From Candidatus Latescibacterota bacterium (GTDB lineage Bacteria; JAAXHH01; JABIQT01), in NCBI GenBank assembly GCA_018667995.1, contig JABIQT010000102.1:1-5802 (forward strand): DNA of 5,802 nucleotides, in the 5' to 3' direction. Positions 1 through 5,802 of the stretch are shown here, piece after piece; position 1 is the stretch's first letter, and every line of letters starts with the position of its first letter. The position numbers were made by a program, and so were the translations under genes. The notes below the pieces were generated by a model. That model ran no database searches, was not told the origin of the DNA, and was given only the letters and a program-made list of their open reading frames with translations.

Positions 1-949
1 ATCGGTCCTGGATCTGGCCGGCCGCACTCAAGAGGAATGCGCTGTTGTACAGGCCATATGTGAAATCTTCCTCCTCTATATGGCGACTGCCAATTAGGAA
101 TGCGCTGCCCGTACGCTCTCCCATTTCAGCCACAAGCGTGAGAAAGGCACTGTCCGCAGCAAGATAGCTTCCCGTCATCGTCTCCGGTAATACGGTCAGA
201 TCCGCTCGATAATCATCCAATGCGCCGAGGAGCGTCCTGTACCGTCTTATAATCTGTTCGTGCACTACCGCGGGATCCTGGTTGCGCTCATCAATGGCAG
301 CCTGAACAGTTGCCACACGCACCAACTCGCCGTTGCCAGGTTGGGACCTGAGAACCAGTGTGCCATAGGTGGCGGCTCCCAGCAGCATAATCGTAGATGT
401 GGCGAGCCAGATTGTGGTATACCGCGCGTTCAGAGGGGAACGGATTACAAGGCGGGTTAAGGTCACGCTGATGACGACGAGTAGCAACGACAGACCGAAA
501 ACGCCGGTGACGGAAACGATCTGTACCAGATGCGTCACTCGCGCCTGCGATGCACCCAATGATCCGACTTGAAGGCCTGTGAACGCGGTGGCACGGATGA
601 ATTCCAGTGCGGTCCAAAGCAAAGGAGAAATAACGCAAGCCAGTTCACGGTTTCGACGGGCCACATAACTGACCCCCGCGGAAAATAGTCCCACATAGAG
701 TGACACGTATAGTAGCAACATCACAAAAATGGAGATATTCAGAGCCTGCAAGGTATAGCGAAAGTGGATGCCGTAGGCTATCAAGCCGCATATCCATCCG
801 CAGGCGAGGGAGATTCCTGTTGAAGGCGGATGCTTTATGAGGTGAAACAGAAGCGGAACAAGTGCGCCGGCCGCCAACCAGGATGTATTCTGGTCCCACA
901 GGGAGACTGCGAGAAGAAGTCCGGAGATCGCGGCGGAGAGAAGCGGCAT
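1..949 (-). CDS. lnt: Apolipoprotein N-acyltransferase (Lnt) homologue, C-terminal part beyond window
   Basis: Lnt is an inner-membrane enzyme that moves an acyl chain from phospholipid to the N-terminal cysteine of lipoproteins. It has a multi-spanning N-terminal half and a periplasmic nitrilase-fold domain. From the ATG at 949 (AAGG at 958-955, 5-nt spacer; an in-frame stop lies upstream) 316 codons stay open to the window edge. Seen: hydrophobic segments around residues 2-17, 25-37, 45-63, 71-96, 103-118, 138-170 and 179-200; a P-x2-W-x3-E-x2-R motif (P109, W112, E116, R119); an LVQIVSVTGVFG stretch (141-152) like the family's LIQIxxxTGVxG; Q216 opening the nitrilase domain; and PET at 255-257, with E256 matching the catalytic Glu. 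The catalytic Lys and Cys would lie past the edge (full length is usually about 500 residues). Oddities: Leu instead of the usual Trp before PET, and no FPP motif near the N-terminus, so it may be a divergent paralogue rather than the housekeeping copy. It lies 71 nt after the kinase gene. Confidence 0.88.
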   Translation of the reverse strand, partial: MPLLSAAISGLLLAVSLWDQNTSWLAAGALVPLLFHLIKHPPSTGISLACGWICGLIAYGIHFRYTLQALNISIFVMLLLYVSLYVGLFSAGVSYVARRNRELACVISPLLWTALEFIRATAFTGLQVGSLGASQARVTHLVQIVSVTGVFGLSLLLVVISVTLTRLVIRSPLNARYTTIWLATSTIMLLGAATYGTLVLRSQPGNGELVRVATVQAAIDERNQDPAVVHEQIIRRYRTLLGALDDYRADLTVLPETMTGSYLAADSAFLTLVAEMGERTGSAFLIGSRHIEEEDFTYGLYNSAFLLSAAGQIQDR

Positions 950-2082: not shown

Positions 2083-2087
2083 TATCA
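2083..2087 (-). promoter_or_regulatory. Stop-restart junction between precursor and kinase genes
   Basis: On the minus strand the precursor ends in TGA (2087-2085), followed by TA and then the kinase GTG (2082-2080). There is no purine-rich ribosome-binding site in the 20 nt before the GTG. The arrangement suggests that ribosomes finishing the peptide restart on the kinase gene. Coupling is inferred from spacing only. Confidence 0.5.
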
Positions 2088-2264
2088 GTTGAACTTAAAT
2101 TGAGCCGGCGGTCCCGAGCACCGCTGTAGTCTGCATTTTGTCACATTGCCGACGCCTTCCAGAAACATGGAGCGCTCTCCCTTCTGTTGCTGCAATGATC
2201 CGTAGCTGGTCAGTTCCGGTGGAATGTATGTCTTTCGTCTAGCTCGCGGCTTCTGCTGGTCCAT
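2085..2264 (-). CDS. Putative RiPP precursor peptide, 59 aa, lasso-like leader motif
   Basis: Small gene between the radical SAM and kinase genes. ATG at 2264-2262 has GGAGG at 2275-2271 with a 6-nt spacer; the TGA is at 2087-2085. It overlaps the last 26 nt of the radical SAM gene in another frame. The N-terminal half is basic (KPRARRK, 5-11) and contains YIPPELTSYGSL (13-24). This resembles the YxxPxLxxxG leader element of lasso-type precursors, which docks on PqqD-like recognition elements; the usual Thr a few residues later is not obvious (QQQK, 25-28). The C-terminal half (about 29-59) is a candidate core: G35/G37/G39 nearby, C44-x4-C49, PP at 52-53, and it ends QFKFN. Possible kinase targets are S32, T42 and S50. 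No signal peptide or lipobox is present. Met33 (2168) has its own AAGGGAG 8 nt upstream, an alternative start for a 27-aa form. That it is a precursor is inferred from position, ribosome-binding site and leader motif. I recognise no named product. Confidence 0.75.
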   Translation of the reverse strand: MDQQKPRARRKTYIPPELTSYGSLQQQKGERSMFLEGVGNVTKCRLQRCSGPPAQFKFN

Positions 2265-3504
2265 TGTCGCCCTCCAGTATATTTATGGCCTGCGTTGCCC
2301 GGCATCGATCCGATGACGGCAGTAGGGGGTCTCTATGCTCGCTGTAGGCGAGACCGGGACATTTGTGACATTTTGAGATGACACCACAGGATGAGCAAGC
2401 CTCATCGAAATCGTCATGGGTCAACGAGCGAATACGTTCCAGTAGTGGTGATTTATGCCAGATATCTTTAAATGACTCGTTACGCAGGTTTCCGAGGCTC
2501 ATCCGCCAAGTAATACACGGAAGCACCTCGCCCCAGGAAGTAATTGATACAGAATTCCATCCGGCGCTGCAGACACCTTTCTTTTTCGGAGTTTCTTCCA
2601 CCGGCTCATCTGCCGAAACAATACTCTCAGCCGAGATCAATTCGTTGTCAGTCTCGTTATCAGGCGTGAGCATGCAGTGAGATTCCGATAACCCCATGGG
2701 GCCGCCGAGTGCGGCTGACTGCTCGATTTCATGCCATGCGTCCATGGGGATCATATCCGGATCATCGACTACCGACAGATCAGGAAGGGAGGGCGCCACA
2801 TCGGAGAGCCCCGAATGTACCATGGCCGTTTGTATTTCGTCGTCCTTCAGCATTCTGTCTGTAATTCGAATCTGATCATCGGAGATACGCTGCTCCCACA
2901 CATCGGTGGATCCATCGTCCCTTGGAAACAGAATATAGTCGTACCGGAACTGCCATCCGTTTTTCTGGCACATGGCTTTGAGGGCCGGAAGTTCGTGGAA
3001 ATTCTGCTTCATGAGAACCATCTTGACGTTTACCATTATGCCTGCTTCGTCCAGATAGGATATGCCACGCATAGTACGGCGTAACGATCCTTTGAGGCGC
3101 GTAATGCCGTCGTGAATTTCGGGCGTGACACCATAGACGCTGATATCGACTTCCTGCACCCGGAGCTTCGCGAGCTCCTGGGCAATCTCTCTCGTAATTA
3201 ACGTAGCGTTCGTGAACAGAAAGAGCGCGAATCCCAGTTCATGGCTCTTTCTCATGATCGGGAGGAAATCCTCTCGAACCAATGGATCTCCGCCGGTAAA
3301 CGTCAACTCCATGGCGCCTTCTGCAGCCAGCTGTTCGAGTATGTCAACGATCTCATCATAGGTGAGTTCATTACCCATCCATCGGCTTCGGACACAGTGA
3401 GAACAGTCCTCGTTGCATCGGCTGGTCATTTCAAAACCCACCGAAAACGGAACCGTAGAATCCGTTTGCTTGGCGATCAAATGGTCCAGAGTAGCTTCCC
3501 GCAT
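2239..3504 (-). CDS. Radical SAM/SPASM peptide-modifying enzyme
   Basis: 421 aa. The N-terminal radical SAM domain has the [4Fe-4S]/SAM motif C30-x3-C34-x2-C37 and GGDP at 71-74 for SAM binding. The C-terminal SPASM domain has C312, then G325-x4-C330, then C370-x2-C373-x5-C379-x2-C382, and a late C401, enough for two auxiliary Fe-S clusters. Family members such as PqqE, sactisynthases and related maturases use a 5'-deoxyadenosyl radical to make C-C or thioether crosslinks in a peptide held by a PqqD-type recognition element. Here a PqqD gene lies just upstream and the small precursor gene overlaps the 3' end. Odd: between the core (to about 198) and SPASM (from 312) there is a long, acidic, Ser/Asp/Glu-rich stretch of roughly 110 residues. 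The start is ATG with a strong AAGGAG site. The exact reaction cannot be read from sequence. Confidence 0.93.
   Translation of the reverse strand: MREATLDHLIAKQTDSTVPFSVGFEMTSRCNEDCSHCVRSRWMGNELTYDEIVDILEQLAAEGAMELTFTGGDPLVREDFLPIMRKSHELGFALFLFTNATLITREIAQELAKLRVQEVDISVYGVTPEIHDGITRLKGSLRRTMRGISYLDEAGIMVNVKMVLMKQNFHELPALKAMCQKNGWQFRYDYILFPRDDGSTDVWEQRISDDQIRITDRMLKDDEIQTAMVHSGLSDVAPSLPDLSVVDDPDMIPMDAWHEIEQSAALGGPMGLSESHCMLTPDNETDNELISAESIVSADEPVEETPKKKGVCSAGWNSVSITSWGEVLPCITWRMSLGNLRNESFKDIWHKSPLLERIRSLTHDDFDEACSSCGVISKCHKCPGLAYSEHRDPLLPSSDRCRATQAINILEGDNGPAEAAS
2271..2275 (-). promoter_or_regulatory. Ribosome-binding site of the putative precursor
   Basis: GGAGG, 6 nt before the ATG at 2264, lying inside the last codons of the radical SAM gene. 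It decides the start of the small gene and is the best single sign that it is translated. Confidence 0.7.
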
Positions 3505-3609: not shown

Positions 3610-3879
3610 CTATTCCTCAACAAGATCCACGAGCCCTTGACCCGCAAGATCATTCACCAGTTTCTCAAAATCGGCCTCAGCTGTTTTCTCCTCGACCTCG
3701 AACTCCTCAACAACATCCGCCACTATGGCGGCATATGGACGGTCATCTACGAGGCCCTGCCAGATAATTCGTCCGGTTTCGTTGAGACTGTAATAGGAAC
3801 CTGAGTCAAGATGCATCAGTACGAACTCATCCTTTAGTCGGCGCCAAGTGATGCGGTCCTTATCGATGACGATTTTCAT
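3610..3879 (-). CDS. PqqD-family peptide chaperone (RiPP recognition element)
   Basis: 89 aa, the usual length of a stand-alone PqqD-type protein. Seen: N-terminal beta strands (residues 2-14 and 18-25, ending HLDSGSYY), the signature YYSLNETGRIIW (29-40), then helices with an acidic EEFEVEEKTAEAD region (58-70) and a terminal LVNDLAGQGLVDL. Members fold as a winged helix-turn-helix and bind the leader of a precursor peptide, presenting it to a radical SAM/SPASM partner or a leader protease. The radical SAM gene follows directly, and the YxxP..YGSL leader in the 59-aa peptide is the obvious ligand (inference). The start ATG has GAGG at 3888-3885 (5-nt spacer); the upstream in-frame codons contain no ATG, GTG or TTG back to the glycosyltransferase stop. 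It is not PQQ biosynthesis: no pqqA, pqqB or pqqC is present. Confidence 0.92.
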   Translation of the reverse strand: MKIVIDKDRITWRRLKDEFVLMHLDSGSYYSLNETGRIIWQGLVDDRPYAAIVADVVEEFEVEEKTAEADFEKLVNDLAGQGLVDLVEE

Positions 3880-3947: not shown

Positions 3948-5117
3948 CTAAGATTTCAGATTGAAGTGTTCTTTCACATAAACCATGAAATAACCTATCA
4001 TTGTAAATAGGATAAAAGCCTGTACGAGCAGGAGCACGGCGTCGAGTCCATCAGATTTTCTCAGGACCATAGCTCCGATACCAAGTATAACGGATACCAG
4101 ATAGATTGCCACCACCGAGCGTCTTACACTGAATCCGATTTCAACCAGTCGATGATGAAAATGGTCCTTCCCCGTGAAATGTATCCATTCGGCGAAATTC
4201 CGAACCTGGCCATACTTGATCCTGAGAAACGTTGTGAGTGTGGTATCGAATATGGGTACTCCCATGATCAAAATGGGTACGATCAAGTCTACGCTACTGC
4301 TGCCGGTTCCCCAATCACCCAGGATACCGATGGCTGCCACAGTGAAACCAAGGAAATTGCTGCCGCCGTCTCCCAGGAAAATCCTGGCTGGCTTTCTCAC
4401 TCGAAAATTGTACGGCAGGAACCCCAAACAGCTACCCATCAATGCAATGGACAGAAACCGCATATACGGCTGTCCCATCTCGAATGAGATAAAGCTGAAA
4501 ATGGCAGCGTAGATCATAATGGTGCCGGCTGCCAGCCCATCCAGACCGTCCAGGAAATTGACGGCATTAGTCATGCCGATCATCCAGACCACTGTAAACA
4601 GGATTTCAAGCCCGTCTCCCCACCAGGAATCTGGCATAAAACTCACTCGCACACCATACTCAATCATGATAGCAACTGCAGTGAGCTGGATCACCAATCG
4701 TAGTTTGGCGCTGAGGGGTTTGATATCATCCAGAGCGCCTATGAGGTAAACAAGCGTGGCCGCAATAGCCACGCCCTTGACCTCTTCCGTGTACAGGTTG
4801 TTGATAAAAATCGTGGCAGTAAATGCCACAAAAATAGCAAATCCACCCATTAACGGAGTAGGCGTCGCATGCATTTTTCGTGCAGCAGGTTGATCGATAG
4901 CGCCGAGTACGCGAGCAAGATACATCGCCACCGGCGTAAGTAGAAAGGCCATTGCGGAGGCAAAGATAGCAAGATACAGTGCCCGCAGGTGGCCGCTGGA
5001 AAAGAACCACCAACGTACTGGATCGCGTATCAGGAGTATCGATATTATGGCCAATGCCGGCAGGCACCTGGCTAAAAAATAGCCGGGAGTCAGCCCGATT
5101 TTACTTTGCTGAGTCAT
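3948..5117 (-). CDS. Polyprenyl-phosphate sugar-1-phosphate transferase (WecA/TagO/MraY family)
   Basis: 389-aa integral membrane protein with 11-12 hydrophobic segments (for example 11-31, 44-70, 91-106, 138-155, 197-215, 276-292, 333-352, 358-382). It transfers a sugar-1-phosphate, probably a HexNAc-1-P, from a UDP-sugar to undecaprenyl phosphate at the cytoplasmic face, starting a lipid-linked glycan. Seen: RKMHATPTPLMGG (80-92, substrate-site motif), GALDD with the Asp pair 130-131 (Mg/nucleotide site), NFLDGLDGLA (187-196, catalytic Asp), FLGDGGS (247-253) and DHFHHRL (318-324). The His motif and overall form favour the WecA/WbpL/TagO group over peptidoglycan MraY, which would sit in a cell-division cluster. 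The ATG lies 5 nt after the aminotransferase stop; AGG at 5124-5122 overlaps that stop, so the two genes are probably co-translated. With the aminotransferase it indicates synthesis of an amino-sugar-containing surface glycan. The sugar specificity is unknown. Confidence 0.94.
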   Translation of the reverse strand: MTQQSKIGLTPGYFLARCLPALAIISILLIRDPVRWWFFSSGHLRALYLAIFASAMAFLLTPVAMYLARVLGAIDQPAARKMHATPTPLMGGFAIFVAFTATIFINNLYTEEVKGVAIAATLVYLIGALDDIKPLSAKLRLVIQLTAVAIMIEYGVRVSFMPDSWWGDGLEILFTVVWMIGMTNAVNFLDGLDGLAAGTIMIYAAIFSFISFEMGQPYMRFLSIALMGSCLGFLPYNFRVRKPARIFLGDGGSNFLGFTVAAIGILGDWGTGSSSVDLIVPILIMGVPIFDTTLTTFLRIKYGQVRNFAEWIHFTGKDHFHHRLVEIGFSVRRSVVAIYLVSVILGIGAMVLRKSDGLDAVLLLVQAFILFTMIGYFMVYVKEHFNLKS

Positions 5118-5122
5118 GTTAC

Positions 5123-5802
5123 CTATATCACGAGGTGTAACGCTTCAATGACCGATGCATACTCTTCCTCCGAGAGCGAAGGGTAGATCGGTATGGATAG
5201 AGCGGATGCGAATGCCGCATCGGCAGCTGGGAGCGAGGGCTGCTCAAGTAGCTGGTGAAGAGGCATTGAAACCGGTCTGCGACAGGCGATGCCTGCTCGG
5301 TCCAACCCGGCGATAATCTCCTCAAGCGGTCGACGCATGCGCGTCACGTATCTATAGAATATATGTGTTCCGGCGGGCCTGTCTACTGGAAGATCCATAT
5401 CCAGATCCTGCAGGTCTCGCGAATAACAACGAGCGATCTCGCGCCGTCGATTGATGAAGTCGGGCAGGCGCCTTAGCTGCACCATCCCCATAGCAGCCTG
5501 GATCTCGGTCATCTTGTAGTTGTATCGGGTAGTATGGCCGTCCGGTTGGTCGTAGTCGCGTAGATCACGAATGCGTTCGCCAACGGCCGCATCGTGTCCG
5601 ACAACCATTCCACCTTCGCCGGTTGCCAGCATCTTGGTGGCATAGAACGAACAGATGGCAAGTTCCCCCTGGCCACCGACGAAGCGTCCATTTGTGGATG
5701 CTCCTATCGCCAGCGCGCAGTCCTCTATCACCGGTACGCCAAGAGACATCACATCGGCAACGGGTGCTGGCAGGCCAAACATGTGGGGTACGATAGCTGC
5801 GC
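5123..5802 (-). CDS. DegT/DnrJ/EryC1/StrS sugar aminotransferase, 5' end outside window
   Basis: 225 C-terminal residues are visible (first full codon at 5800-5798); about 150 N-terminal residues should lie beyond the right edge, from a usual 370-400. PLP enzymes of this family aminate keto-sugar nucleotides to make amino sugars for O-antigen, capsule or glycan units. Seen, numbering from the first complete codon: HMFGLPAPV (6-14), VIEDCALAIGA (24-34, D27 contacts the pyridine nitrogen of PLP), and CSFYATKMLATGEGGM (50-65), in which K56 is the Schiff-base lysine (codon at 5635-5633). These are followed by YNYKMTEIQAAMGMVQLRRL and an RRREIARCY helix typical of the family. The gene ends with TAG at 5125-5123, 5 nt before the glycosyltransferase start, so the two probably act in one glycan pathway. 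The substrate cannot be told from this fragment. Confidence 0.93.
   Translation of the reverse strand, partial: AAIVPHMFGLPAPVADVMSLGVPVIEDCALAIGASTNGRFVGGQGELAICSFYATKMLATGEGGMVVGHDAAVGERIRDLRDYDQPDGHTTRYNYKMTEIQAAMGMVQLRRLPDFINRRREIARCYSRDLQDLDMDLPVDRPAGTHIFYRYVTRMRRPLEEIIAGLDRAGIACRRPVSMPLHQLLEQPSLPAADAAFASALSIPIYPSLSEEEYASVIEALHLVI

Follow-up and report, generated by a model that had tools for sequence, protein, structure and literature searches.

YxxP segments are RRE-binding motifs, and precursors that carry them are phosphorylated by HprK-like kinases (PMC13381572, PMC10368454, PMC9266682), for which a His-Lys-Asp-Asp motif is required in the lasso kinases (PMC9266682). RREs of the PqqD kind considered here bind such leaders (PMC13381572, PMC12710340). 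In the linear-polyphosphorylated peptides (LPPs; Popov et al. 2026, PMC13381572), which are mostly from Bacillota, a discrete PqqD-type RRE and an HprK-like kinase stand beside a YxxP-leader precursor in a polysaccharide neighbourhood, without a lasso cyclase and in genomes that also hold lasso clusters. These systems further include an S26-type leader peptidase, an NTP transferase and an MsbA-like exporter; their leader motif is longer, and no radical SAM enzyme is mentioned (PMC13381572). The kinase-tailored lassos (paeninodin/PadeK, PMC9266682; BsfA/BsfK, PMC10368454) have a B1/PqqD RRE, an HprK-like kinase and a YxxPxL leader and, in addition, an Asn-synthetase-like cyclase and a B2 protease; their leaders carry Thr, rarely Ile/Val, at position -2. 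According to RRE-Finder (PMC7470986) discrete RREs co-occur with radical SAM enzymes near sactipeptides and ranthipeptides; no kinase is mentioned there, and we found no precursor or product described for this group.

The window analyzed here is a whole contig of 5,802 bp (G000:C755) from a genome that is 85% complete, comprises 1,165 contigs and is evidently metagenome-assembled. In the order of transcription it encodes:

5123..5800, minus strand: DegT/PseC-like sugar aminotransferase, cut by the contig end (PF01041, 8.7e-47)
3948..5117, minus strand: WecA/MraY-like polyprenyl-phosphate sugar-1-phosphate transferase (PF00953, 4e-35)
3610..3879, minus strand: PqqD-family RiPP recognition element (RRE), 89 aa (PF05402, 1.2e-18)
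2239..3504, minus strand: radical SAM/SPASM peptide maturase, 421 aa (PF04055, 1e-23; SPASM PF13186, 1.7e-12)
2271..2275, minus strand: GGAGG serving the precursor gene as ribosome-binding site, located in the 3' end of the radical SAM gene and separated from the ATG by a short spacer
2085..2264 (2264→2085), minus strand: precursor peptide gene, ATG start, TGA stop, 59 aa
1021..2082, minus strand: HprK-like peptide kinase, 353 aa (TIGR04352 HprK_rel_A, 9.4e-10, under cut-off)
2-949, minus strand: apolipoprotein N-acyltransferase (Lnt)-like protein, cut by the contig end (TIGR00546, 117.8 bits, cut-off 132.9)

From these sequences we propose, with a probability of roughly 0.85, that the 59-aa ORF is a RiPP precursor that the PqqD protein would recognize, the SPASM radical SAM enzyme would modify and the HprK-like kinase would phosphorylate, probably at S32.

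Comparison with described clusters and the enzymes of the window

As in RRE-dependent RiPP clusters in general, the PqqD protein adjoins the modifying enzymes (PF05402, 1.2e-18; TbiB1, 1.9e-8) and a short precursor whose YxxPxL segment is a predicted RRE-binding leader. With the LPPs the window has in common the discrete RRE, the HprK-like kinase, the YxxP leader, the lack of a lasso cyclase, the polysaccharide neighbourhood and lasso clusters in the same genome, and with the kinase-tailored lassos the B1/PqqD RRE, the kinase and the YxxPxL leader. Its SPASM radical SAM enzyme is extra relative to the latter and unlike the LPPs; a discrete PqqD protein next to a radical SAM enzyme recalls the RRE-Finder group. 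In recognition and phosphorylation the window resembles lasso and LPP pathways, and in its radical SAM step radical SAM RiPP or PQQ pathways.

The SynChlorMet cassette has two radical SAM proteins. Its combination of PqqD, SPASM radical SAM and HprK-like (ScmC) proteins (TIGR04248-TIGR04251, ScmC/D/E/F) is found in the window as well, but the respective profiles score weakly and far under their curated cut-offs (ScmC 16 of 125, ScmD 24 of 100, ScmE 109 of 400 bits). Furthermore, no Asn-synthetase-like cyclase, B2 protease or S26 (SpI-like) leader peptidase is encoded on the short 5.8-kb contig, beyond whose ends such genes may lie, Thr is not found at -2, and the LPP consensus YxxPxVLxHQxIxFETxxS is not matched by the corresponding segment YIPPELTSYGSLQQQKGERS. 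Because these defining features were tested and not found, we did not file the cluster as lasso peptide, LPP or SynChlorMet. In the full-text literature searched, which excludes most subscription papers, no RiPP that unites a discrete RRE, a radical SAM enzyme and an HprK-type kinase is described, and the radical SAM–kinase peptide family is apparently undescribed.

The radical SAM protein carries the CxxxCxxC motif (C30/C34/C37) and the SPASM cysteines, remains under every NCBIfam equivalog cut-off shown, and counts SkfB and PqqE, both peptide-modifying, among its PDB relatives. A long, mostly acidic insertion between its radical SAM core and SPASM domain (residues ~237-310, window ~2575-2800) is missing in the relative L032. 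The best PDB matches of the PqqD protein are the lasso RREs TbiB1 (5v1u/5v1v, 1.9e-8) and TfuB1 (2.2e-6), and the lasso PqqD profile NF033530 yields 56 bits (cut-off 70). The kinase retains the His-Lys-Asp-Asp motif (H166, GxGKT with K187, D204-D205), of which H166, K187 and D204, together with G186, are invariant across ten cluster kinases. PDB HPr kinases match it at E 0.1 only, and an AlphaFold2 model from a five-sequence alignment (pLDDT 55) was too poor for a fold search; the putative kinase function is assigned from the P-loop region. The Lnt-like gene comes after the kinase on the same strand, and no homologue of it was found in the other clusters.

A 59-codon ORF between the radical SAM and kinase genes

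The original prediction described a hidden 59-codon ORF with a GGAGG site, an overlap with the radical SAM gene and a 2-nt gap to the kinase, all of which we confirmed in the sequence. The encoded peptide (MDQQKPRARRKTYIPPELTSYGSLQQQKGERSMFLEGVGNVTKCRLQRCSGPPAQFKFN) starts from an ATG at 2264 that is preceded by TGGAGGGCGACA; the sequence ahead of the start, ATACTGGAGGGCGACA-ATG, contains a good GGAGG site. The ORF shares 26 nt (2239-2264) with the radical SAM stop region and its TGA lies 2 nt ahead of the kinase GTG (2082). Since no SD is evident for the kinase gene itself, translation of precursor and kinase is likely coupled. That the ORF might extend the kinase at its N-terminus was rejected, as the frame differs and a stop codon intervenes.

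The motif expected at residues 13-24 is present as YIPPELTSYGSL, so that the N-terminal leader, Y13-I-P-P-E-L-T-S-Y-G22, matches YxxPxLxxYG. The variable C-terminal core holds S32, C44 and C49. No Pfam or NCBIfam family matches the peptide at cut-off and a lipobox is absent from it. Precursor genes this short are usually overlooked by annotation.

Could the ORF be a chance frame in an intergenic spacer, with a merely coincidental leader-like motif? The 156-nt gap between the radical SAM and kinase genes is crossed by an open frame in 0.46 of shuffles, which is not significant alone, and codon usage is uninformative (~0 per codon in any frame versus 0.13-0.23 for the neighbours), a 59-codon precursor yielding little signal of this type. 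Consequently, the length of the ORF proves nothing by itself. A start codon followed by [YFW]xxPx[LIVMF] on the right strand of this gap, however, occurs in only 0.013 of shuffles. Moreover, a leader HMM of 17 columns, derived from 23 candidate precursors in other clusters with the window ORF left out, ranks the ORF first among 168 window ORFs (E 7.4e-5; next ORF 3.3) with a score reached by 0 of 2000 residue shuffles, though it partly restates the YxxP motif because its 23 sequences were picked by a YxxP-type motif. Together with the SD, the recurrent position and the conservation in the L147 family (see below), these values make a chance ORF highly improbable, and the ORF is very probably a real precursor of the adjacent enzymes.

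Its anticipated role as substrate of the adjacent PqqD, radical SAM and kinase proteins is supported by the leader HMM, the position in the gap and synteny, whereas the accompanying label "lasso-type" had to be loosened: the HMM from the radical SAM clusters recognizes the leader, but a lasso-only leader profile gave E 0.086, NF033528 reached 12.8 bits (cut-off 33) and NF033521 did not match.

Related loci and selection

No close orthologue of the window radical SAM protein was found in 84,980 genomes, the best matches being 34-38% identical over their best segments; at E<=1e-40 there was none in 95 other genomes, 15 of the same order, with the window itself as sole match. A scan of genome contigs with this protein alone as query gave no match, a plasmid search with the kinase gave two weak ones, and no orthologue was found near enough to test dN/dS directly on the precursor ORF. 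As a close radical SAM orthologue was missing, the system was traced through the kinase, using a ten-kinase profile by which 384 genomes were searched and 60 loci fetched; loci of earlier searches were added. A radical SAM gene lies within 2.5 kb of HprK in 35 loci from 29 genomes (PqqD in 22 of the 35, S26 peptidase in 11, lasso-type B2 protease in 9), counts which are not an unbiased prevalence because the profile was seeded with kinases from radical SAM clusters. Clusters of PqqD, radical SAM and HprK-like kinase are common across phyla.

A same-strand YxxP ORF occupies 17 of 28 radical SAM–HprK gaps of at least 60 nt, with 2.8 expected from shuffles and 5 of 28 found on the opposite strand; two loci with two radical SAM genes each are counted twice, and probably one or two of these 17 ORFs, such as that in L155, arose by chance. 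Such ORFs were located in L034, L045, L122, L139, L143, L146, L147, L156, L158, L164, L165 and L166, so that the proposed inspection of the same interval in related loci had a positive outcome in distant relatives. None of the precursors tested from these clusters matches Pfam or NCBIfam. A Deltaproteobacteria MAG (L045), for example, shows the order PqqD-rSAM-A-HprK-S26 with a YEKPKL leader and a Cys-rich core (precursor ORF L045:5500-5664); further clusters come from Firestonebacteria (L038) and Hydrogenedentota (L056) MAGs. Recurrence extends to the outer genes on the upstream side of the window, since DegT and WecA lie upstream in L166 and L143: L166 (DegT-WecA-PqqD-rSAM-A-HprK-S26-NTase) has DegT-WecA-PqqD-rSAM-A-HprK in common with the window, and L143 likewise reads DegT-WecA-...-rSAM-A-HprK. 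The WecA homologues match at 7e-94 (L166) and 3e-84 (L143), with DegT homologues upstream of WecA in both.

The polysaccharide-type neighbourhood, the HprK kinase, the discrete RRE and the YxxP leader would also be expected of an LPP precursor (PMC13381572), on which the kinase would be the main modifier while the radical SAM enzyme acts on something else, and S26 signal-peptidase-like genes do occur in several relatives, such as L045, L139 and L166. Yet the radical SAM gene overlaps the precursor ORF, such a gene accompanies HprK in 35 loci, none is mentioned for the LPPs, and the window departs from the LPP consensus; we therefore consider this reading unlikely.

The leaders closest to that of the window stem from one small phylum (L147, L178-L180, L182 and L164; G137 group) and follow the pattern YxKPxLTKYGTV...GPSC. 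L147, L178, L179 and L180 encode nearly identical peptides, with the core MKKNENENKKTYSKPVLTKYGTVKDVYTGPSCKAIMEAEADK and homologues in L182 and L164. Precursors of the L147 type are 42 aa long, shorter than that of the window. In all six loci the ORF overlaps the radical SAM 3' end and its SD is internal to the radical SAM gene, as in the window. With pN/pS of 0.04-0.44, and shifted frames almost without synonymous change, the corresponding ORF of these relatives evolves under purifying selection. The anticipated bias towards synonymous substitutions is thus a property of the L147 family as nearest relatives and not of orthologues of the window itself. Conservation of the two Cys, which had been proposed as a further check, did not hold up: counted from the leader Tyr as register position 1, they lie at 32 and 37 in the window and often at 21 in the relatives, and several of these (L122, L027, L123, L136) have no Cys.

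These results suggest a RiPP family that spans phyla and in which SPASM radical SAM enzymes are paired with HprK-like kinases and YxxP-leader peptides, a more interesting result than the single window cluster, which is itself related to lasso and linear-polyphosphorylated peptides. The family connects lasso/LPP peptide kinases with radical SAM RiPPs, two fields described separately, and supplies defined substrates for an orphan radical SAM/kinase pair together with a testable phosphosite.

Proposed pathway, phosphosite and neighbouring lasso systems

In the proposed pathway the PqqD protein would bind precursor residues ~12-24 (YIPPELTSYG) and hand the peptide over to the radical SAM enzyme. 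This SPASM protein probably acts on the precursor and would modify a carbon centre in the core (residues ~29-59). Sactipeptides and ranthipeptides combine a SPASM enzyme with a Cys-containing core in which a thioether leads to another residue. The window encodes a SPASM enzyme and a precursor with two Cys, in which a Cys thioether is possible. Phosphorylation of the precursor by the HprK-like kinase is moderately favoured and would take place on a Ser, most likely S32. As leader protease and exporter are both absent from the 5.8-kb contig, we infer that they are encoded off it.

The predicted phosphosite is derived from a register argument. BsfA is phosphorylated by the characterized kinase BsfK at core Ser3, which is register position 20 (PMC10368454), and S32 of the window coincides with it. 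Ser also occupies register 20 in 6 of 6 members of the L147 family and in three of the genome's own four lassos. The assignment of S32 in particular is tentative, with chances somewhat below even.

The adjacent DegT sugar aminotransferase and WecA suggest a role at the cell surface or one linked to glycans. It is conceivable, albeit a long shot, that the products are surface-attached phospho-RiPPs with a radical SAM-derived core crosslink, in which the register-20 phospho-Ser links a sugar or polysaccharide supplied by DegT/WecA (and NTase in relatives). If true, the radical SAM/kinase pair and glycan attachment would define a RiPP class.

The register also bears on an ordinary lasso precursor, with cyclase and B2 encoded elsewhere in the genome and radical SAM enzyme and kinase as tailoring enzymes. 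Cyclases are indeed present in this genome, the YxxPxLxxYG leader is of the same kind as in its four lasso precursors, and the PqqD protein is closest to lasso B1 proteins. Register 16 (-2), however, is Lys in the window and Thr in all four of these lassos, a core in lasso register would begin with Glu30 in place of the usual Gly, the contig carries neither Asn-synthetase nor B2, and the lasso-only profile barely responds to the leader, which leaves a lasso product very unlikely. In the relatives the residue at register 16 partly follows the protease type: L027, L122 and L123 pair Thr with B2, L056 and L136 do not, and most S26 loci show an EE-A/V block. A superficially lipobox-like block of the type E[EA]..VLxGCK recurs at the leader-core junction of L045, L139, L143, L146 and L166.

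Two long Cys/Gly-rich precursors with YEKP leaders (L034:45-269 and 4302-4532) lie on either side of two radical SAM genes in a locus that also has HprK, S26 and an ABC exporter. In L155 two precursors (9594-9764 and 9873-10049, minus strand), whose leaders are YxxP-like and whose tails are of the GGGGCGCGCG type, are situated upstream of a radical SAM gene and adjoin HprK and S26. The small ORF L029:3614-3817 (minus strand), adjoining HprK-PqqD-rSAM, resembles a Tat-style signal peptide protein (MKRREFLEKGKK...) more than a classic YxxP-leader peptide.

The genome of the window holds several true lasso loci, L021, L022 and L023 (contigs C127, C1103 and C855), with Asn-synthetase, PqqD and YxxP precursors that share YxxPxLxxxG; two of the three also have B2. 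In L023 there are two cyclases, along with two precursors that end in Arg-rich tails (RGWDKRRRR). A further locus, L020 (C1043), without cyclase or obvious YxxP precursor on its contig, combines an HprK-like kinase, PqqD, NTase, a sulfotransferase-like and another transferase-like gene and is possibly another kinase-RiPP cluster.
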